61,067 nt of DNA, taken from the IMG/VR virus record IMGVR_UViG_3300027782_000090, positions 1 through 61,067 of that record. The stretch is one strand, 5' to 3'. The DNA is from a virus. The notes under the pieces were generated by a model. The model saw nothing but the letters and a program-made list of their open reading frames with translations, was not told the origin of the DNA and did not search any database. Below are positions 52,587 to 61,066 of this stretch, piece by piece. Numbering within the stretch: position 1 is the first letter of the stretch; each line of letters begins with the position of its first letter. The position numbers and the translations under genes were made by a program.

Positions 52587-53255
52587 TTAACTATACTTGC
52601 TACTGTGAATATGACAGATTTCAATTTCATTTATATTAACATGACTTGGTAATGATCCTACCCAGTAAATTGCTTCTGCTAAATCTTCTGCGGTTAATGC
52701 TTGATCCCGTTTTTGTTCTTGGGTATCAATAGTTGCTGGACAGATTTCTGTAATCTTAATCCCAAATTGAGGAAACTCAAGTCTCATTGTATCAATAAGA
52801 CCACGTTCACCTCTCTTCGCATTTGTATAGTTTCCTCCACCACGATATGGTACCTTTCCTCCAAAAGAAGTAATAAAGATAATTGTTGGAGACTCTGACT
52901 TTTCCATACATGGAGCAAATAGTTGAGATAGGTACATAGGGCCAGTTACATTTATATCATAAGCTTTTCTAAAGTTTTCTGGAGTCTCATTAATAATATG
53001 AGTTGGGCCTGACCCTCCTCCAGCATTATTAACTAAAAGGTCTAAAGTAATGTCTTTGTATTTTTCAAAGAACACTTCTATTGCTTTAGAATCTGTAACA
53101 TCTAGGCTATATACTTCAACATTATCAGATATTAGCTCAGAAACTTTTGAAAGGTTTCTTGAAACAGCAATGACTTTATAACCATTTTCAGACAAGCGTT
53201 TAACTGTTGCTAATCCAACACCCTTACTTGCTCCAGTTACAATTGCTGTTTTCAA
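52587..53255 (-). CDS. short-chain dehydrogenase/reductase (222 aa)
   Basis: The Rossmann NAD(P)-binding motif TGASKGVG lies at residues 7-14 and NNAGG near 76-80. The catalytic residues are S130 (FITSFGG), Y143 and K147 (NYTNAK). All are intact. It is the last gene of the oxygenase operon, one base after the previous gene. The substrate is not known; it could act on the oxygenase products or on cofactor or sugar metabolism. Confidence 0.9.
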   Translation of the reverse strand: MKTAIVTGASKGVGLATVKRLSENGYKVIAVSRNLSKVSELISDNVEVYSLDVTDSKAIEVFFEKYKDITLDLLVNNAGGGSGPTHIINETPENFRKAYDINVTGPMYLSQLFAPCMEKSESPTIIFITSFGGKVPYRGGGNYTNAKRGERGLIDTMRLEFPQFGIKITEICPATIDTQEQKRDQALTAEDLAEAIYWVGSLPSHVNINEIEICHIHSSKYS

Positions 53256-53987
53256 TTACATGCTCTGGCTTTGATTAAGATCCATAGTATTATGAATCCA
53301 GTGTCCAGGAACCATGTACTTTACACCAGATTTAACTGTGTGTGCCGTGTGAAAATATGGGGCAAATGCTGGAAAAATAACAACACTATTTTCTTTAGGT
53401 TTTACACCAAAACTAATAGCTTTGTTTTCAACTGCAAGGTCATAATCTAACTCTACTGCTGGAGCGCCACTTACCCAACCCTCTGTGCTTGTCCATCCAC
53501 CATCATAATCTTTTAGCTGAAAAGAAATTTCTCCACCTTCACAGTCATCGTTTAAATACATTACCAAAGAATATCTCAATGTCTTGTCGCCATCGAGTTG
53601 ATCAAAGTGTGCTCCCATAGCCATTCCAGTATTATATTTTTTAATGTTAAATGTTGGGAAAAGTCTTGGCTCATCAAAATCTCCCAAAGAAGAGGCATAG
53701 TCTTTACAAACATTATACATTGTAGTCATAATAGCGTCATAGATATACTTACTTTTTTCTGCTACTTCTCCACTAAGATTATTTATTGCGTTTATATCAA
53801 ATGTCTTTGTTTCTCCATAAATAAAAGTTTTATCGTTAGAAGATGTCCAAGGGTTCCAAACATTTACACCTGACTCATTATACTGTTCAAGAGTGTCTAG
53901 CTCTTTCCAAACCTGTTTAAAGGTATCAAAATTTTCAATTGCGTCAGTATAGTAGTATACCTTTGGATCTAGTAGTTCTTTATTCAT
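53256..53987 (-). CDS. 2OG-Fe(II) oxygenase, prolyl-4-hydroxylase-like (1)
   Basis: The double-stranded beta-helix core shows H127-x-D129 (MGAHFDQL), the P4H hallmark YLNDDCEGGEISF and distal H216 with K223 (HTVKSGVKYMVPG) for 2-oxoglutarate. All metal and cosubstrate ligands are present. GGGAG precedes the ATG. A 13-base gap separates it from the previous oxygenase. Its N-terminal half (about 110 residues) is unlike those of the other six enzymes, which may indicate a different substrate. Confidence 0.9.
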   Translation of the reverse strand: MNKELLDPKVYYYTDAIENFDTFKQVWKELDTLEQYNESGVNVWNPWTSSNDKTFIYGETKTFDINAINNLSGEVAEKSKYIYDAIMTTMYNVCKDYASSLGDFDEPRLFPTFNIKKYNTGMAMGAHFDQLDGDKTLRYSLVMYLNDDCEGGEISFQLKDYDGGWTSTEGWVSGAPAVELDYDLAVENKAISFGVKPKENSVVIFPAFAPYFHTAHTVKSGVKYMVPGHWIHNTMDLNQSQSM

Positions 53988-53999
53988 TTGTTTCTCCCT

Positions 54000-54659
54000 T
54001 TAGTATTTATTGTTATCGTAAAAATTTTTAACCTTGATAAAACCAACCAAAACGTATCTAATTGGTCCAGGGCCTACATGCTTTACTCCATGATTATACT
54101 CTGCAGTTCCTGGAAAAATAAGCATTGATCCAGGCTTTGGCTTAAACTCTAAACCATTGTTTGGAAAAAACAACTCTCCGTCAATGTAATCATCATTTAA
54201 ATATAGTATAGCAGCATACCTAATTGATGGGTCTGTATCTTGATCTGTGTGAGCTTTTAACTCAACACCCTCTTGCATCCTTTGAATAGTTGCAAAACCG
54301 CTTAGCTCTATTGTATTGTCAGACTGTTGAACTAAATTATTTAATCTATCAAAGAGGTCTCTTTGAAATAAATGATGTTTTATATTTAAATTTTTATCTT
54401 GCCAATTTTGAGTAATCTCAAATTTTCCTTCAGCAACTAAATTATCTACGTCGTCTCTTCCAAATTTTTGCAAACAAAAGTTTTTTAAATTAGCATGATA
54501 TTCTACAAACCAATCTTCATTTGGAGTAGAATCTATAATATTAAAAAACTGGTCTAGCTCTTCTTTAGATAAAAAATCTTTAACTAATAAAACATCATCA
54601 GTAATTTCCTCAATTTGAAAATTATCTTTTTCTAAAGCATCTTTTAAGAAATTAGGCAT
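54000..54659 (-). CDS. 2OG-Fe(II) oxygenase, prolyl-4-hydroxylase-like (2)
   Basis: H137-x-D139 (KAHTDQD), YLNDDYIDGELFFP, distal H190 (YNHGVKHV) and R201 (IRYVLVG) give a complete active site. Here Arg holds the cosubstrate rather than Lys. It overlaps the upstream oxygenase gene by 8 bases. The acidic N-terminal half (IEEITDDVLLVKDFLSKEEL) is the usual P4H helical lid. Confidence 0.9.
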   Translation of the reverse strand: MPNFLKDALEKDNFQIEEITDDVLLVKDFLSKEELDQFFNIIDSTPNEDWFVEYHANLKNFCLQKFGRDDVDNLVAEGKFEITQNWQDKNLNIKHHLFQRDLFDRLNNLVQQSDNTIELSGFATIQRMQEGVELKAHTDQDTDPSIRYAAILYLNDDYIDGELFFPNNGLEFKPKPGSMLIFPGTAEYNHGVKHVGPGPIRYVLVGFIKVKNFYDNNKY

Positions 54660-55410
54660 CTTTGTCTAAGTCCTCAACTTTATACTTATTGCCATCAGCA
54701 TCTAGCTTCCAGCCTTCTTTTAAGAGTTCTTGCCATTCGGCTCTCTCAATTTCTTGCTTGGCTCTAGTCTCTTTCATTTCTGCAGCCCATGCATCTCTTA
54801 GTTCTTGTGGATAAGCATCTTCTTCTCTATCATCCCAGAAAGATCCGATGGTGTATCTGACTCCACTTTCTATTAGGGATACTTCGTGCATGTTACTAAA
54901 TCCCCCGTCAAAAACAGCAAGCATTCCAACTTCTGGTTTAATTTCTAGGCTTTGATCTGGAAACTTGAGGAGCCCTCCCTCAAAATCATCATTTAGGTAT
55001 AAGAAGCCTGCATATCGACTTCTTGTAAATGCGCCTGAGTTTCCTTTGGCATCTGTATTATCTGAGTGCACTCTTGCGTATGCTCCTGGCTCCCACTTTT
55101 GTGTATGGTACCCAATCTTAGAGATTGTTTTTGGATCTAAGTCATGAACTGAAGCAATTGCCTCTGGCATTGTTTTTTCAATATCTGAAAAGATAGTTGG
55201 AGATAGTCCAGCATCAAGCAACTCTTGATCATTGTCTTGTGGAAGGACAGAGGAGTATGATTCATAAAATGAAATAGGCATCCAAGAAAGTGCCCCGTTA
55301 TCTGCCTGTGCATCTAAAGCTTGAATCATCTTTTGACAATCTTCTTTGCTTATAAAATTTTTATAAACAACTATGTCTTTTGTTAGCCTAACTTTATTTT
55401 CTAGGTTCAT
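54652..55410 (-). CDS. 2OG-Fe(II) oxygenase, prolyl-4-hydroxylase-like (3)
   Basis: The N-terminal VVYKNFISKEDCQKMI matches the entry helix of P4H domains. H115-x-D117 (ARVHSDN), FLYLNDDFEGGLLKFP, H175 (NMHEVSLI) and R185 (SGVRYTIGSFW) form the site. The C-terminal about 55 residues (WAAEMKETRAKQEIERAEWQ) are a charged helix absent from the other paralogues. It overlaps its neighbours by 4-8 bases. Confidence 0.9.
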   Translation of the reverse strand: MNLENKVRLTKDIVVYKNFISKEDCQKMIQALDAQADNGALSWMPISFYESYSSVLPQDNDQELLDAGLSPTIFSDIEKTMPEAIASVHDLDPKTISKIGYHTQKWEPGAYARVHSDNTDAKGNSGAFTRSRYAGFLYLNDDFEGGLLKFPDQSLEIKPEVGMLAVFDGGFSNMHEVSLIESGVRYTIGSFWDDREEDAYPQELRDAWAAEMKETRAKQEIERAEWQELLKEGWKLDADGNKYKVEDLDKDA

Positions 55411-56291
55411 TGTAATCTTACTCCATTTTCTATGTGATTTCTTTGAGGATGTTCTAGTCTAAACTGATCTTCTAAACTTTTTTGCATTCCAGCCCAAACT
55501 TCTTTTCCAAACTCTTTTTCTTTTTCATACCAGTCATCTGTTCCTCTTTGGTATTTTTGCCAGTACATTCTTGATAAAAACTTATTTTTATTGTATGACG
55601 GCAAAACTCCATGCAGATACGGCTTTCCTTCTTCAGTTAAGTAATCTGGGTGCCCTGAAGGAAAAACTAAAAAGTCTCCTGCTTCTGGCTTATACTTAAC
55701 AAGCTTATCTCCCATGGCAAAATCAACTTCTCCACCCTCGTAGTCATCATTAAAGTATGTTGTGCATGTTATTACAAATTTGTATCCTGGATAGTGACCT
55801 TGTTCTCTTATGTAGTCTGAATGATAGTTCATGCCAACTTTGCTATCTTCATTGCTTACATGATACTTTCCTATTGTTCCACCTGTCCATTTCCAAGTTG
55901 GTACAACATTTCCATACTCATCTATAGAGGTTTCATCTAAATCTACGTCAATGTTATATCTTTTAATATAGTCTTGTGTAACTAAGTGAAAATTTTCTAG
56001 TAATTCTATACCTAAATTTTTTTGATCTTCTTGAGTTTGTGTTGTTGTTTCTACGTTTTTAAAATTTCCATGTTTTTCGGAAGTAGAAAAAGAAGGAATT
56101 ATTGGATTTAAGTAATCTCCAAAAACAGACCAAGTAGTCCAAGGATTAAAAATACGATCTTCTGTTTCAATTAAAGAATCAGTCAAGACCTTGTAAGACT
56201 TTGAAACATCTTTAAAGAGATTTTTATATACAAGAATGTGAGGATATATCTCTATTGCTTCAAGTTGATTATTAGGCCAAGGATAAGTCAT
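55407..56291 (-). CDS. 2OG-Fe(II) oxygenase, prolyl-4-hydroxylase-like (4)
   Basis: This is the longest of the set (294 residues). H157-x-D159 (NYHSDYI), YFNDDYEGGEVDF and H227 (YLHGVLP) are clear. The cosubstrate-binding basic residue is less certain, because NKNKFLSRMYW replaces the usual G-x-R/K-Y; K237 or R241 are candidates. The C-terminal extension is charged. Both ends overlap neighbours by 4 bases. Confidence 0.87.
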   Translation of the reverse strand: MTYPWPNNQLEAIEIYPHILVYKNLFKDVSKSYKVLTDSLIETEDRIFNPWTTWSVFGDYLNPIIPSFSTSEKHGNFKNVETTTQTQEDQKNLGIELLENFHLVTQDYIKRYNIDVDLDETSIDEYGNVVPTWKWTGGTIGKYHVSNEDSKVGMNYHSDYIREQGHYPGYKFVITCTTYFNDDYEGGEVDFAMGDKLVKYKPEAGDFLVFPSGHPDYLTEEGKPYLHGVLPSYNKNKFLSRMYWQKYQRGTDDWYEKEKEFGKEVWAGMQKSLEDQFRLEHPQRNHIENGVRLQ

Positions 56292-56968
56292 GGTTGCCTT
56301 TCTCCTGTGTGCTTTTTAATTTCCCAAAAGAAAGGACATGTAAACCTTAAACCGCTCTTAATTTCAGTAACCCCGTGAACATAGTTTTTGTCTCCTGGGA
56401 AAAAATAAGCAGCGCCCTTTTTAGGTTTAAACTGAACCCCTTGTAGTGGGAAGTATAGCTCTCCACCTTCATAGTCATCGTTTAAATAAAACAAGCTTGA
56501 TAAATCATAGTTTGGAAAATCATTAGGAGTTCCAGCATCTGGTCCTTCGTGAAGCTCCTTATCTGCATGAGGATTTTGAAATTGTCCAGGAAGCCATTTA
56601 ACAATAGTTGTTCCAGTTGGATGAACTTCTACCTTATAAAATTCTTCAACAATTGGTTTTAGTCTTTGAAATAAACCAGCAATAACTGGTGCAATAGTAG
56701 GGTCATTTTTATCTAAAGATGGAGTGGTTGCAACCCTATCTTTCCAATAATCAGAGTCATAGGTAACTGTTCCGTTCTCATTCATATGACTTTCGGTTAC
56801 ATCCCAAATTGTTAAAGATTTAGCAGCTTTTTCAAGAAACTCTATTTCTTCTGGGGTCATAAAGTTTTCTAGCTCAACAATCATGTCTTTGCTATCTCCA
56901 AACCAGCCAGATGGAGTTATAGATGGTGTTCTTTTAACTACTGTATATGAATCTTTATTTTGTTCCAT
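56288..56968 (-). CDS. 2OG-Fe(II) oxygenase, prolyl-4-hydroxylase-like (5)
   Basis: H134-x-D136 (NPHADKE), FYLNDDYEGGELYFP, H198 (YVHGVTEI) and R208 (SGLRFTCPFFWE) are all present. This sequence is the closest of the set to classical P4H catalytic domains. A Trp-rich N-terminus and a PPG-type loop (KWLPGQFQNPH) precede the metal site. It begins two bases after the DUF6065-like gene. Confidence 0.92.
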   Translation of the reverse strand: MEQNKDSYTVVKRTPSITPSGWFGDSKDMIVELENFMTPEEIEFLEKAAKSLTIWDVTESHMNENGTVTYDSDYWKDRVATTPSLDKNDPTIAPVIAGLFQRLKPIVEEFYKVEVHPTGTTIVKWLPGQFQNPHADKELHEGPDAGTPNDFPNYDLSSLFYLNDDYEGGELYFPLQGVQFKPKKGAAYFFPGDKNYVHGVTEIKSGLRFTCPFFWEIKKHTGERQP

Positions 56969-56970
56969 TT

Positions 56971-57687
56971 TTATATTATATCACCTTTCGTTTTATCTGT
57001 TACACCTAATTTTAATATTTTTACCTCATGGGATCCCTGGGTTTCTCTTTTTTCATTTACAGCATCTCTGTACCAATCTGTCCATTTGCCAGCAGAGTTT
57101 ACTTCTTGTGCAGCAGACCCATAGGACATATTTGCTTCTAGTCTTTTTCTATCTTGATCTTCATAATTAACAATTTTAATGTCTGTACCATTTAAATTTG
57201 ACAAAGATATAGGAATTATTGTGGCAACTGGGGTTCCCGCTTTAATGACTACCCTTTTGTTTGCTACCTTTGCTTTAATGGCTAAAGGTAAAGGATTATC
57301 ATAAAAAGATGTGCTTATTAAAGATGACATGGTCTCAAACTCATCACTAAAATAATTTACTGGATTGATAGTAAAAATACTAACATCTTTGTCTGTTCTA
57401 AAAACTAAACCCGTATTTAAGCTTATAGAGGATTGACCTCTTCCAGAATAAGATCCTTCTGGACTAAATATTTCAATGTGATCTGAACTCTGATCATTAA
57501 CTCCATCCCAAATAAACTCAATATCTTCTACACAGGAAAGACTCCAGCCAATCACATTTGACTGAGTTACTGGAAAACATCTATAGGCATGATTCTCTGA
57601 TGTTGCATCCATCCAGTCTCTTTTAATCGACATAGGTTGAATGTCAAACAAAGCTCCCTGTGTTTTTTCAACCGAGATATTAAACAT
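56971..57687 (-). CDS. DUF6065-like uncharacterised protein A (238 aa)
   Basis: The central part resembles DUF6065: FPVTQSNVIGWSLSC, DIEFIWDG, then NTGLVFRTDKDVSIFTINPVN, and the late phrase AGTPVATIIPIS. It is probably a beta-sandwich of unknown activity. It starts in a TAATG overlap with oxygenase 6. The related protein B is coupled to oxygenase 7 in the same way, so oxygenase and DUF6065-like genes form a repeated two-gene unit. Confidence 0.65.
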   Translation of the reverse strand: MFNISVEKTQGALFDIQPMSIKRDWMDATSENHAYRCFPVTQSNVIGWSLSCVEDIEFIWDGVNDQSSDHIEIFSPEGSYSGRGQSSISLNTGLVFRTDKDVSIFTINPVNYFSDEFETMSSLISTSFYDNPLPLAIKAKVANKRVVIKAGTPVATIIPISLSNLNGTDIKIVNYEDQDRKRLEANMSYGSAAQEVNSAGKWTDWYRDAVNEKRETQGSHEVKILKLGVTDKTKGDII

Positions 57688-58343
57688 TAGTCTGCGTCTG
57701 CGCTATACATCTCTGGGGTATGAAACTTTTTACTGTAGTCAAGCATTGTAACTATAGAGTATTTAGTTCCAGAGGTTACTGGCATTGCTTGATGTGGGTA
57801 CATAAAGTTTGATGGGAAAATAAACAAGTCTCCAGCATCTGCTTTAACCTTTAGATTTTGCAGTCTAAAGAAAAGTTCTCCACCCTCATAATCATCATTT
57901 GGATATGAAACTAAAGAAACTGTACAGTTATAAGAAAATCCATGATCATGGTGCTCCATAAAGTGTTGGCCTTGGCCATACTTAATAAAGTTAAAAGCTT
58001 CCCAATATTTTAAATTATTAATATTATACATCTTGCAATAATCTTCTACTGCTGGTGACTTTACATCATAAAGATCTTGCCAAAGCGACTGAAGGTTTAA
58101 GCTGATCTGACTTTTATCGTTTTCAATATCTGTTTTCTTAAACTTAAAGTCATTACAATCTCTATAGTCTGGCATTAGTTGTTTGTAGCCCACATATGCA
58201 GGTTGCCAACTATATCCAGTGGTATCTCCTTCTGGTTTAAGGTTATCTTCAAGTCTTTTTATTACATCAATCTCTTTTTTAATTACACCCTTGTAAACAT
58301 ATATTCCATTGCCAAGGTCTACCTTCTCTGTCCATGTTTGCAT
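57687..58343 (-). CDS. 2OG-Fe(II) oxygenase, prolyl-4-hydroxylase-like (6)
   Basis: H131-x-D133 (MEHHDHGF), YPNDDYEGGELFF, H184 (MYPHQAMPV) and K194 (SGTKYSIVTM) are intact. NFIKYGQGQHF and the run into YNCTVS are nearly shared with oxygenase 7, indicating a recent duplication. AGGAG lies six bases before the ATG. Confidence 0.9.
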   Translation of the reverse strand: MQTWTEKVDLGNGIYVYKGVIKKEIDVIKRLEDNLKPEGDTTGYSWQPAYVGYKQLMPDYRDCNDFKFKKTDIENDKSQISLNLQSLWQDLYDVKSPAVEDYCKMYNINNLKYWEAFNFIKYGQGQHFMEHHDHGFSYNCTVSLVSYPNDDYEGGELFFRLQNLKVKADAGDLFIFPSNFMYPHQAMPVTSGTKYSIVTMLDYSKKFHTPEMYSADAD

Positions 58344-58352
58344 TTTATTCTC

Positions 58353-59126
58353 CTATTTGTATTCTCGTCTTGACCAAACTTTATTTTTATATACCCCGCC
58401 GTCAGGCTGTCTATAAAACTTCATGTTGTTAAACATTTTATCATAAATTTCAGACTGCCCCAATATCTCTACTTTGCTTTCCCAATTTTCTCTTTTAAAT
58501 GGCAAGACCTGTAGATATGGAGTGCCTGCTGGAATTGTTCCTTCCCAGCCCTCCGCAATAAAAAATGGAAAACTTCCAAGTAGATGAACTTTATCTGAAT
58601 CAACAATTCCTGTTGTATTTAAAAATGGTAAATCAAATCTATTCATTGGTGTCATAAACAGTGCACTATATCCTTCTGGAAGTTCAAGTCCCCAGTCCGA
58701 GCTCCAAGCAAAATGATGCTTGTAATGCCCTGCTGGATGCTCAAACTGTGGCATTGGAGGTCTTTGAGTACAGAAATCCTGATACCTTTTATCTTCAATC
58801 TTTACACCAATAACACCTTGTGCATTTTTAGAAAATATTAAATCGCAAGGAGTTTTAAAAACATACCCAGTTGAAAAAGCATCCATAATTGCAGGACATG
58901 CTTTCCAGGTAGGGATCTTTCCATAGTCATCTGTCGTTCCTTCTTTTGGGAAAGGACATGTTTCTTTTGGTGCATTGTAGTATTCATTATTAATTGGATT
59001 TTTTGCAAACCTGTCCGCATCTTTATACCAATCTGGAATTTCTTTTTGTGTTGGCGCAGGGACAGAAATACTATCTTTATTTAGCCACGGTCTAAAAGAT
59101 CTAAAAATTGCCAAGTTATTCATCAA
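58353..59126 (-). CDS. DUF6065-like uncharacterised protein B (257 aa)
   Basis: The protein contains IPDWYKDADRF, CPAIMDAFSTGYVFKTPCDL, GYSALFMTPMNRFDLPFLN, a GIVDSD step and the late GTPYLQVLPFKRENWES. This layout is shared with protein A and with uncharacterised phage proteins found near 2OG oxygenases. It overlaps oxygenase 7 by 4 bases. No catalytic motif is recognised. Confidence 0.65.
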   Translation of the reverse strand: MMNNLAIFRSFRPWLNKDSISVPAPTQKEIPDWYKDADRFAKNPINNEYYNAPKETCPFPKEGTTDDYGKIPTWKACPAIMDAFSTGYVFKTPCDLIFSKNAQGVIGVKIEDKRYQDFCTQRPPMPQFEHPAGHYKHHFAWSSDWGLELPEGYSALFMTPMNRFDLPFLNTTGIVDSDKVHLLGSFPFFIAEGWEGTIPAGTPYLQVLPFKRENWESKVEILGQSEIYDKMFNNMKFYRQPDGGVYKNKVWSRREYK

Positions 59127-59833
59127 TGACTCAATTCATTAATATCTGTCATGATGACAACACAATACTTTGTCCCTGATTTCATTGGCAAGGATGCATG
59201 CTCATAAATATAATTTGAAGGAAAAATTGCTATGTCTCCAACTTTAGGAGTGTGAATAAAATTATCTAATCTTGGGAATTTAATCTCTCCACCTTCATAA
59301 TCGTCATTAATATATATTACTGCAGATACTGTGCAGTTGTAGGCTGGGCCATGGTCAGCATGAATGTTGAAGTGAGTTCCTTCACCTTCATACTTCACAA
59401 AGTTAAATGCTTCATAATAAACAACATTTATACCCCAATATTGTGCATAGTCATCTATACACATCTTTAATTTTTGATAGATTTCTTCGTGTAAATCAAT
59501 GAGGCTTTCGTTATGCTCATCTTTTGGTCCAAGGTTTTCTTGCTTATATTTAAAGTCTACAGCGTCTCTTGCTTTTTTAATTGGAACTGTAGAGTTTGTT
59601 ACTTGTGCTTCAGACCATTTATATTTCTTATCCCCTGAAAGATTGTGCTCAAGCGTATCAATATATCTTTCTGAGTCATCTTTTGAAAAAACATTATGAT
59701 AAATATTTAACCCTAGTCCTGGGTTGCTAATAGATATATTACTTTGAGGCATTAGTCGTGCAATTCTTGCTGATGCAGTTTCTGATCTATCTTTAGTAAA
59801 CCAATGATTATTATTTTCATCATACGTGTTCAT
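59123..59833 (-). CDS. 2OG-Fe(II) oxygenase, prolyl-4-hydroxylase-like (7)
   Basis: This is the first gene of the operon. H158-x-D160 (NIHADHGP), YINDDYEGGEIKFP, H212 (YEHASLPM) and K222 (SGTKYCVVIM) give a full active site. It is the closest paralogue of oxygenase 6. An extended -10 and AGGAA before the ATG support this start, with a leader of about 25 bases. Confidence 0.9.
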   Translation of the reverse strand: MNTYDENNNHWFTKDRSETASARIARLMPQSNISISNPGLGLNIYHNVFSKDDSERYIDTLEHNLSGDKKYKWSEAQVTNSTVPIKKARDAVDFKYKQENLGPKDEHNESLIDLHEEIYQKLKMCIDDYAQYWGINVVYYEAFNFVKYEGEGTHFNIHADHGPAYNCTVSAVIYINDDYEGGEIKFPRLDNFIHTPKVGDIAIFPSNYIYEHASLPMKSGTKYCVVIMTDINELSH

Positions 59834-59864: not shown

Positions 59865-59873
59865 ATTATAGCA
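59865..59873 (-). promoter_or_regulatory. extended -10 promoter for the oxygenase operon
   Basis: The minus strand reads TGCTATAAT, with TTGCTT as a possible -35 at an 18-base spacing. It precedes ten tightly coupled genes ending with the dehydrogenase at 52587. Confidence 0.65.
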
Positions 59874-59907
59874 TAAGACTACTATTTAAAGCAAAATAAG
59901 GCTAGGG

Positions 59908-60138
59908 CTACCACTTACTTAGTGGACATTTAGCAGCTTGTAGCTGAGTTTTGGCTTTCATAAAGCATCCGCATTTTTTACATTGTGAGGTAAGCTTTAT
60001 TAATTCTGGACAAGCGTTGCAGATGTCCATTCTTTTTTTAACTTTTTCTGTATCTGGTTCTTTAGCATTTTCAACAAGAAGATGCCATGGGCGTGTTTCA
60101 CCTACAGACTCTTTCCATTTTTCCCAAGCGTTTGACAT
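59908..60138 (-). CDS. DUF6171-like zinc protein (76 aa)
   Basis: The Cys pattern C40/C43 (CNACPELI), C53/C56/C58 (CKKCGCFM) and C71 (CPLSKW) with an N-terminal Trp-rich helix (WEKWKESVGETRPWHLL) matches DUF6171 proteins, common in phages and often near oxygenase genes. It is likely a small zinc-binding protein of unknown role. Confidence 0.75.
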   Translation of the reverse strand: MSNAWEKWKESVGETRPWHLLVENAKEPDTEKVKKRMDICNACPELIKLTSQCKKCGCFMKAKTQLQAAKCPLSKW

Positions 60139-60588
60139 TTATTGATCTCCTAAATATTTTTCTGGTGCAAAAAATTTTTCTCCGTCATAAGTATAGCCTA
60201 CATCTACTAAACTATCATCTTTTAGAGCAATAATATAAATTAAGTCAGAAAATGCTGCAATCAGTTTTGGGTCTGGATCTCTATCATTTTCTGGAGAACC
60301 AAACATAGCAAGAACAACATTATTAATCATAAAAACATAAACAAGCCTGTTAGTTGGTTGTAGTGTGCCCAATATAGATTTTTCTGAAATAGTAAAACTC
60401 TCTAAGTCTTCATTCCAAACAGAATAAATAGCAAGATTTTCTTTTCCAGAAATTACTTTAACTTTTATTGGTGATGATTTTGAAAGCAAGTTCCATCTGT
60501 CAATTAGGCCTTCTGGAGCTTTATCTTCTGGAAGAATAAATGAATGAAAGACATCCGAAATACCCTTACTGTTGCTTTCTGTTAACAT
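60139..60588 (-). CDS. hypothetical protein (149 aa)
   Basis: The product is a mixed alpha/beta protein with FILPEDKAPEGLIDRWNLL, a beta segment (IKVKVISGKENLAIYSVW) and a hydrophobic strand (RLVYVFMINNVVLAMFG). No family is recognised. GGGG lies 18 bases before the ATG at 60588; an in-frame ATT four codons earlier has a better spacing. It lies between the Pro/Phe/Tyr repeat gene and the oxygenase operon. Confidence 0.6.
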   Translation of the reverse strand: MLTESNSKGISDVFHSFILPEDKAPEGLIDRWNLLSKSSPIKVKVISGKENLAIYSVWNEDLESFTISEKSILGTLQPTNRLVYVFMINNVVLAMFGSPENDRDPDPKLIAAFSDLIYIIALKDDSLVDVGYTYDGEKFFAPEKYLGDQ

Positions 60589-60621: not shown

Positions 60622-60630
60622 AGTATAGCA
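60622..60630 (-). promoter_or_regulatory. extended -10 promoter before the 149-aa gene
   Basis: The minus strand reads TGCTATACT in an AT-rich gap of 124 bases. No strong hairpin follows the upstream gene's stop at 60713. Confidence 0.55.
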
Positions 60631-60712
60631 TAACAAAACTTAAATTTCTATTTAGAAAATATTTAAATATATAGTTTTATATAAAAATATTACTTGTTAT
60701 TTATTTCTACTT

Positions 60713-61066
60713 TTAGCAGAAGTAGTAACCACTAAGCACACACTGACAAGATGCGTTGTATGTATAAACATAATATGTTGCATCAGTGTAGAAACAGAAC
60801 GATCCACAGTCACCGCCTACGTTACAAGCTGGACCTGCTGCAAAGTAAGGTGGGAAGAAAGGTGGGAAGAACGGGAAGTAAGGTGGGAAGAACGGTGGGA
60901 AGAATGGGAAGTAAGGGAAGTAAGGTGGGAAGAAAGGTGGGAAGAACGGGAAGTAAGGTGGGAAGAACGGTGGGAAGAACGGTGGGAAGAAAGGTGGGAA
61001 GAACGGAAAGAACGGGAAGAACGGTGGAAAAAATGGAGGGAAGAACGGGGCTAATGTTGTAATTGA
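60713..61066 (-). CDS. Pro/Phe/Tyr repeat protein with Cys-rich C-terminus (5' end cut)
   Basis: The last 117 codons are in the window; the start lies beyond position 61067. After six residues (SITTLA) come 69 consecutive residues consisting only of Pro (31), Phe (33) and Tyr (5), arranged as FFPP and YFP units with a recurring YFPFFPPFFPP block. Then AAGPAC and a 42-residue tail with six Cys (for example GDCGSFC and SCQC) and many Tyr end at TAA 60713. Third codon positions vary (CCA, CCT, CCG), so coding selection is likely. The proximity to seven prolyl-hydroxylase-like enzymes suggests it may be hydroxylated. It may instead be a structural or surface protein. Confidence 0.8.
   Translation of the reverse strand, partial: SITTLAPFFPPFFPPFFPFFPFFPPFFPPFFPPFFPPYFPFFPPFFPPYFPYFPFFPPFFPPYFPFFPPFFPPYFAAGPACNVGGDCGSFCFYTDATYYVYTYNASCQCVLSGYYFC
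60841..61045 (-). repeat. tandem coding repeats of FFPP/YFP
   Basis: The plus strand shows repeated ggtgggaagaa and ggaagtaaggtgg units, which on the minus strand read CCN CCN TTC TTC. The larger repeated unit is 33 bp, encoding YFPFFPPFFPP, seen about three times with small indels of one repeat part. The repeats contract and expand in whole codons. Confidence 0.85.

Follow-up and report, generated by a model that had tools for sequence, protein, structure and literature searches.

Seven ordered 2OG-Fe(II) oxygenases inherited with one adhesin stalk type in a phage fragment: a candidate virion-protein modification cassette

Few "auxiliary metabolic genes" of aquatic phages are as common as those for the 2-oxoglutarate- and Fe(II)-dependent (2OG-Fe(II)) oxygenases. 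The cyanophage S-SCSM1 encodes 24 of them (PMC9602691), and other cyanomyoviruses carry one to five (PMC3037559) or nine (PMC9146016); one report states that no study has specifically addressed what they do in viruses (PMC9602691). Another describes the collagen-like fibres of Escherichia coli prophages as not hydroxylated and has the enzymes missing from viruses and bacteria (PMC3368898). The enzyme kind considered here is itself already known from the virus-encoded prolyl hydroxylase of an algal virus (PDB 5c5t/5c5u). We describe an array of seven 2OG-Fe(II) oxygenases (Ox1-Ox7; positions 53256-59833) in the IMG/VR record IMGVR_UViG_3300027782_000090, the whole of which (61,067 bases) was analyzed and is termed the window; it is a phage fragment encoding a terminase, a Pol III-type DNA polymerase, a DnaB-like helicase, a portal and a major capsid protein. 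An earlier note on this DNA had pointed to seven diverged oxygenases in one operon and called seven in tandem exceptional. The operon-like array of seven is borne out by seven PF13640 matches on one strand in an order kept in relatives, but it is not strictly tandem, as two genes of the DUF6065 kind (D1 and D2) lie between the oxygenases, and the cyanophage counts show that the number is not exceptional. What is unusual is the compact, ordered, DUF6065-interleaved arrangement. We consider it probable that the seven enzymes form a phage-encoded cassette for the post-translational modification of the phage's own adhesin, a tail-fibre-like protein encoded upstream.

The array is inherited with one type of adhesin stalk, and a virion protein is therefore indicated as the substrate. 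The window holds the 3' part of the adhesin gene (60713..61066, minus strand), cut by the contig end and encoding a (PFF/PPFF/PYF)n proline-aromatic stalk with a Cys-rich tip; complete homologs immediately upstream of the array in relatives combine fibronectin-III (FN3) domains with (PFF)n. Wherever a locus extends 5 kb beyond the array on that side (33/33), a PFF/PPFF-repeat protein precedes the array, and those that were read are fibronectin-III adhesins whose tips differ (Cys-rich, Hint-like, or other) while the array stays the same. In a sample chosen solely by the neighboring ribonucleotide reductase (RNR; 91-97% identical to that of the window), 46 loci hold both adhesin and RNR. Between the two genes, each of the 22 loci with PFF stalks encodes 4-8 oxygenases, whereas none of the 24 with other stalks (GAF, FSPFG, YSFTP) encodes any; the corresponding table of PFF stalk against at least three PF13640 genes is 22/0/0/24, for which a naive Fisher test gives p 1e-13, a value that ignores kinship and is not to be quoted alone. 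When contigs were picked by the DNA pattern PFFPPFFPPFFP alone, the 25 recovered (40-105 kb) all encoded PF13640, 22 of them four or more copies, and their capsid proteins (8 at 74-86% identity, 7 at 37-43%, and 10 without a match) place them in several lineages. By comparison, 22 contigs picked by two random 15-mers had neither the PFF pattern nor PF13640. Among PFFP loci having the relevant flank, 33/46 show a same-strand oxygenase within 2 kb downstream.

Eighteen contigs with a terminase 82-91% identical to that of the window, and without the PFFP DNA pattern, encode 0-4 PF13640 proteins, except for G474 (7, scattered) and G471 (10). By DNA pattern, the latter had been a candidate for an array without a PFF protein; this was rejected on reading the locus, which shows a CPFFPNF adhesin variant directly upstream of the array. 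The syntenic site was read in seven of these relatives, where the same adhesin N-terminus is followed by GAF, FSPFG, NYY, or other C-terminal parts; the array is missing, and the genes that come next include DUF6065-like ones and, in loci that extend to it, RNR. The number of oxygenases showed no significant correlation with the number of stalk repeats (rho 0.36, p 0.10).

On backbone trees (INDEPENDENCE), the PFF/array state changes 14 times for RNR and 7 times for portal DNA, with at least 7 and at least 5 of these changes, respectively, on supported branches. Adhesin and array always change together, in 7/7 independent pairs on the RNR tree (sign test p 0.016) and 5/5 on the portal tree. 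For the RNR gene, though it adjoins the array, no association with the state is seen (14 changes versus 15.6 for shuffled labels). Thus, recombination cuts at the array edge while adhesin and array stay coupled, which argues against simple hitchhiking. Taken together, the coupling of the array to the adhesin is strongly supported.

The oxygenases are encoded on the minus strand as Ox1 (59123..59833; 236 aa; H158/D160/H212/K222), Ox2 (57687..58343; 218 aa; H131/D133/H184/K194), Ox3 (56288..56968; 226 aa; H134/D136/H198/R208), Ox4 (55407..56291; 294 aa; H157/D159/H227/K237), Ox5 (54652..55410; 252 aa; H115/D117/H175/R185), Ox6 (54000..54659; 219 aa; H137/D139/H190/R201), and Ox7 (53256..53987; 243 aa; H127/D129/H213/K223), with overlaps or short gaps between the genes of the array. 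Each matches PF13640 (2OG-FeII_Oxy_3) above the Pfam gathering score (E 8e-8 to 9e-13) and has an H-x-D motif, a distal His, and a Lys or Arg 10-11 residues further on. The iron ligands are invariant in the ortholog alignments of all seven (18-35 sequences each), as is the basic residue, save for K194 of Ox2, which is nearly invariant. The residue pattern reported in the earlier note is thereby upheld; its doubt over the fourth enzyme is removed, the HxD of Ox4 being the HSD of YHSDY and its basic residue a Lys at +10 from the distal His, invariant in 28 orthologs. By these signatures, all seven are intact members of the superfamily with predicted catalytic activity. Their dN/dS values against orthologs (0.03-0.2) are as low as those of RNR and the portal, a sign of strong purifying selection on every one of them.

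The paralogs are diverged (22-42% identical to Ox1). The phylogeny proposed in the earlier note as a check was obtained by maximum likelihood: each of Ox1-Ox7 clusters with its own orthologs, with Ox1+Ox2 and Ox4+Ox7 as sister pairs, so the seven read as old, separately maintained paralogs rather than recent copies. This fits distinct tasks, as the earlier note had suggested in holding that their substrates probably differ, whereas the metabolic, substrate-diverse role that it implied sits poorly with inheritance alongside an adhesin stalk. Relatives hold 7-9 oxygenases in nearly identical order, and at least 600 IMG/VR stretches match Ox2 peptide patterns. Given the conserved order, the low dN/dS, and the PF13640-free random contigs, the array is far beyond chance. 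A variant order, Ox1-Ox2-D2-D1-Ox3, is seen in three loci (L087, L088, L089), where D1, D2, and Ox2 are 52-66% identical versus 92-96% for the flanking Ox1 and Ox3; these identities indicate that recombination has replaced a segment within the array. In PHROGs, certain oxygenases related to these are labelled "DNA endonuclease V" (phrog_274) or "ferrochelatase" (phrog_3531), and RefSeq gives the name ferrochelatase to an oxygenase of S-SCSM1; such labels are probably misannotations.

Ox3, the one member modelled, has a predicted double-stranded beta-helix fold of the prolyl-hydroxylase kind (mean pLDDT 85.7). Nearly all of the top 50 PDB matches of the model are prolyl hydroxylases, with PBCV-1 vCPH first and the prolyl 4-hydroxylases (P4H) of Bacillus anthracis and Chlamydomonas, PHD2, and P3H1 among them; the model thus places Ox3 closer to P4H than to other 2OG classes. 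In sequence-profile searches of the PDB, Ox1 and Ox3-Ox7 come nearest to P4H, P3H1, or LH3, weakly in the case of Ox7. The equivalog cut-off for PKHD-type hydroxylases (NCBIfam PRK05467) is 143 bits, and the scores reach at most 38.

On these grounds we infer the chemistry, the stalk as substrate, the residues modified, the order of action, the timing of expression, and the benefit. Late in infection, the array would be transcribed from its own promoter-like site, and the P4H-like enzymes would act on the low-complexity (PFF/PPFF)n stalk, in a hydroxylation that draws on Fe(II), O2, and 2-oxoglutarate. The chief targets would be prolines, converted to 4- or 3-hydroxyproline, perhaps along with aromatic residues or residues of the tip; the diverged members would each have their own positions or work one after another. 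Made before assembly, such a modification would lend stability to a polyproline-type rod or change how sticky the stalk is. The promoter-like extended -10 element TTATGCTATAAT precedes Ox1 at 59865..59876 on the minus strand, and its only other exact match in the window is at 60622-60633. In many relatives the promoter-like TTATGCTATAMT stands ahead of Ox1 and of RNR, and none of the genes between them is preceded by it; in 27/114 relatives an element of this kind falls within the 150 bp ahead of Ox1, with zero cases for the internal genes and for the reversed control. A scan with promoter and terminator consensus sequences gave no excess above shuffles.

Other stalks may have enzymes of their own. 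Loci with FSPFG/GVF stalks lack the oxygenases, and 10/11 of them encode, in one or two copies, a protein of about 220 aa with the motifs HDH...GHPH...RITIAYD (L501:6034-7358, L504:5222-5887, L506:4330-5001, L507:3777-5071), for which Pfam gives no match and PHROG a weak one at best. Its motif suggests a possible second kind of stalk-modifying oxygenase. The 10 loci with GAF stalks have neither this protein nor the oxygenases, only a DUF6065 gene. The broader proposition, that phages possess dedicated stalk-matched modification systems in which each stalk type (PFF, FSPFG, and others) travels with its own hydroxylases and virion adhesins bear hydroxyproline or further hydroxylated residues, strikes us as evenly balanced.

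Several observations weigh against a stalk-modifying role. For certain PFF proteins of other kinds, the fetched flank contains no oxygenase, and scattered oxygenases whose task is unexplained (0-4, once 7) persist in array-less relatives. A control PF13640 enzyme from a cyanophage gives the same P4H matches as the Ox profiles; P4H as nearest relative therefore says little by itself on the substrate, and we gave the nearest solved structure little weight as evidence. Seven enzymes exceed what collagen systems need for one repeat, an excess that different repeat contexts, successive steps, or other residues could possibly explain. The model also leaves the SDR-family gene and DUF6065 unexplained, the latter being found beside the stalks of array-less relatives too, and part of the adhesin-array coupling could come from the physical linkage of neighbors.

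That last point, taken to its limit, would make the array a mere hitchhiker, tied to the PFF adhesin by adjacency and recombining with it as a block. The genes do adjoin and modules are often swapped; yet the array has been decoupled by recombination from the adjacent RNR and never from the adhesin, there are 0 mismatches in 46 loci, and the same association is seen again in other capsid lineages, whose gene orders differ, all of which leave this account a slender chance. Coupling to the adhesin is equally expected if the enzymes instead alter a molecule on the host surface, or act on the receptor by blocking or releasing it, because the adhesin type fixes the receptor; the SDR gene in the cassette and a weak glycosyltransferase match at the site in one array-less relative would suit such a role. 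However, the array follows the stalk repeat and not the tip, very different C-terminal tips being served by the same array, and the Ox3 model resembles protein prolyl hydroxylases, so that we regard the receptor-linked role as unlikely.

More distant from the adhesin is the auxiliary metabolism proposed for cyanophage 2OG oxygenases (PMC3037559, PMC9602691), by which the seven enzymes would act on different small molecules and reprogram the host at the expense of 2-oxoglutarate and oxygen. The divergence of the paralogs is in keeping with it, but it predicts neither a perfect link to the stalk repeat type nor joint switching, and close relatives (the RNR sample) manage without the array; we hold it to be quite improbable. 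Production of modified bases by TET/JBP-like oxygenases, together with the dUTPase-like DUF6065 proteins and RNR, has in its favor matches of Ox3 and Ox6 to Tet_JBP (PF12851), the resemblance of the D1 model to dUTPase/dCTP deaminase, the RNR adjoining the cassette, and a D1 homolog near RNR in HF2. The Tet_JBP scores (21 and 16.2 bits) fall below the cut-off of 34.9, the structural matches are prolyl hydroxylases, RNR and DUF6065 persist where the array is absent, and no obvious base-modification methylase is seen among the listed proteins of the near relative G003, whose annotation is not exhaustive; this explanation appears the most improbable of all. Metabolism, base modification, and hitchhiking are thus less likely, and modification of the adhesin stalk is the reading that we retain.

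On the minus strand, the order of genes is the cut adhesin 3' end, u149, z76, Ox1, D1, Ox2, D2, Ox3-Ox7, SDR, RNR, a large tail-region protein, and the portal. The product of u149 (60139..60588) is a small protein of unknown function without a PHROG match; z76 (59908..60138) encodes a small Cys-rich, DUF6171-like protein (below cut-off; phrog_13558) that precedes Ox1 in many relatives. A similar protein stands before a separate oxygenase in G003 (L224:19560-19760), making this a recurrent pairing. The SDR-family dehydrogenase/reductase (52587..53255, minus strand; adh_short E 8.8e-41) closes the cassette in most relatives. D2 (56971..57687, minus strand; 238 aa) matches DUF6065 (PF19541) above the cut-off (92.8 bits, E 2.9e-26), whereas D1 (58353..59126, minus strand; 257 aa) has no Pfam match to DUF6065 but shares phrog_7084. 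The D1 model (pLDDT 68.7) suggests a possible dUTPase/dCTP-deaminase-like fold (best Foldseek E 1.8e-4, query TM about 0.3, motifs judged by eye); PDB sequence searches with D1 and D2 gave nothing useful. D1 homologs are found beside RNR in HF2-like haloarchaeal viruses and also in gammaproteobacterial metagenome-assembled genomes. Bacterial DUF6065 neighborhoods were considered as a functional clue and set aside as uninformative, with no conserved neighbor and no oxygenase. As DUF6065 is kept with several stalk types, its role probably lies with the adhesin at large and not with hydroxylation.

G003 (104,993 bases) has a terminase 98.6% and an RNR 97% identical to those of the window, and it encodes WhiB (L220:16434-16727; PF02467 E 6.5e-12), which has been described as a key indicator of actinophages (PMC10202952); an actinobacterial host is therefore likely. 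G474 has a WhiB-looking open reading frame (L500:16842-17126). A nucleotide search of named phages with the whole region matched just 65 bp. In G003, the adhesin comes after a fibre with a major-tropism-determinant N-terminal domain, and this fibre module includes a collagen-like (Gly-X-Y) protein (L224:17587-18342; PF01391 E 8.2e-10), possibly another hydroxylase substrate. Collagen as the general substrate was rejected: at least 8 Gly-X-Y repeats occur in just 9 open reading frames of array loci and in 1/33 loci with 5 kb upstream, versus PFF in all 33. In many members of this adhesin family the last part is a Hint/intein-like region (...HNK or similar), and others have Cys-rich tips (L138:3036-4334, L501:2561-3919, L502:6037-7203); from their sequences, the former are possibly self-processing.

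The co-inherited adhesin-enzyme module appears to be undescribed: no account of a phage oxygenase array inherited with an adhesin stalk was found in the literature searched, most subscription journals lying outside its coverage. The coupling offers a specific, cheaply testable answer for a large phage group, namely that the oxygenases mature virion adhesins. If so, these genes would move from metabolism to virion assembly, phage infectivity would depend in part on the supply of oxygen and 2-oxoglutarate, and a naturally occurring collection of peptide hydroxylases would be at hand with a simple repeat as candidate substrate, in a maturation pathway undescribed for bacteriophages in that literature. 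Among known systems, PBCV-1 vCPH (PDB 5c5t/5c5u) is likewise a virus-encoded enzyme of the P4H fold, and the best structural match of Ox3; however, it is a single enzyme of an algal virus and is associated with collagen-type sequence, whereas here a phage has seven paralogs and the candidate substrate is a PFF repeat, not Gly-X-Y. The B. anthracis P4H (PDB 3itq, 5hv0, 5v7y), a bacterial PF13640-type prolyl hydroxylase, is among the nearest solved sequences for six oxygenases searched, but it is cellular, single copy, and about 20% identical overall. The PKHD-type hydroxylases (PiuC/YbiX, PRK05467) share weak profile similarity with Ox2, Ox3, and Ox7, though far under equivalog cut-offs. The S-SCSM1 oxygenases (phrog_61) belong to the same superfamily and PHROG, and several cluster around tail-fibre genes at 210.7-219.7 kb; they differ in being scattered and of mixed families, with no conserved DUF6065-interleaved array found, and their published readings are metabolic or DNA repair. 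Finally, the phage collagen-like fibre proteins, of which G003 has one, resemble the PFF adhesins in placing low-complexity stalks in tail fibres.

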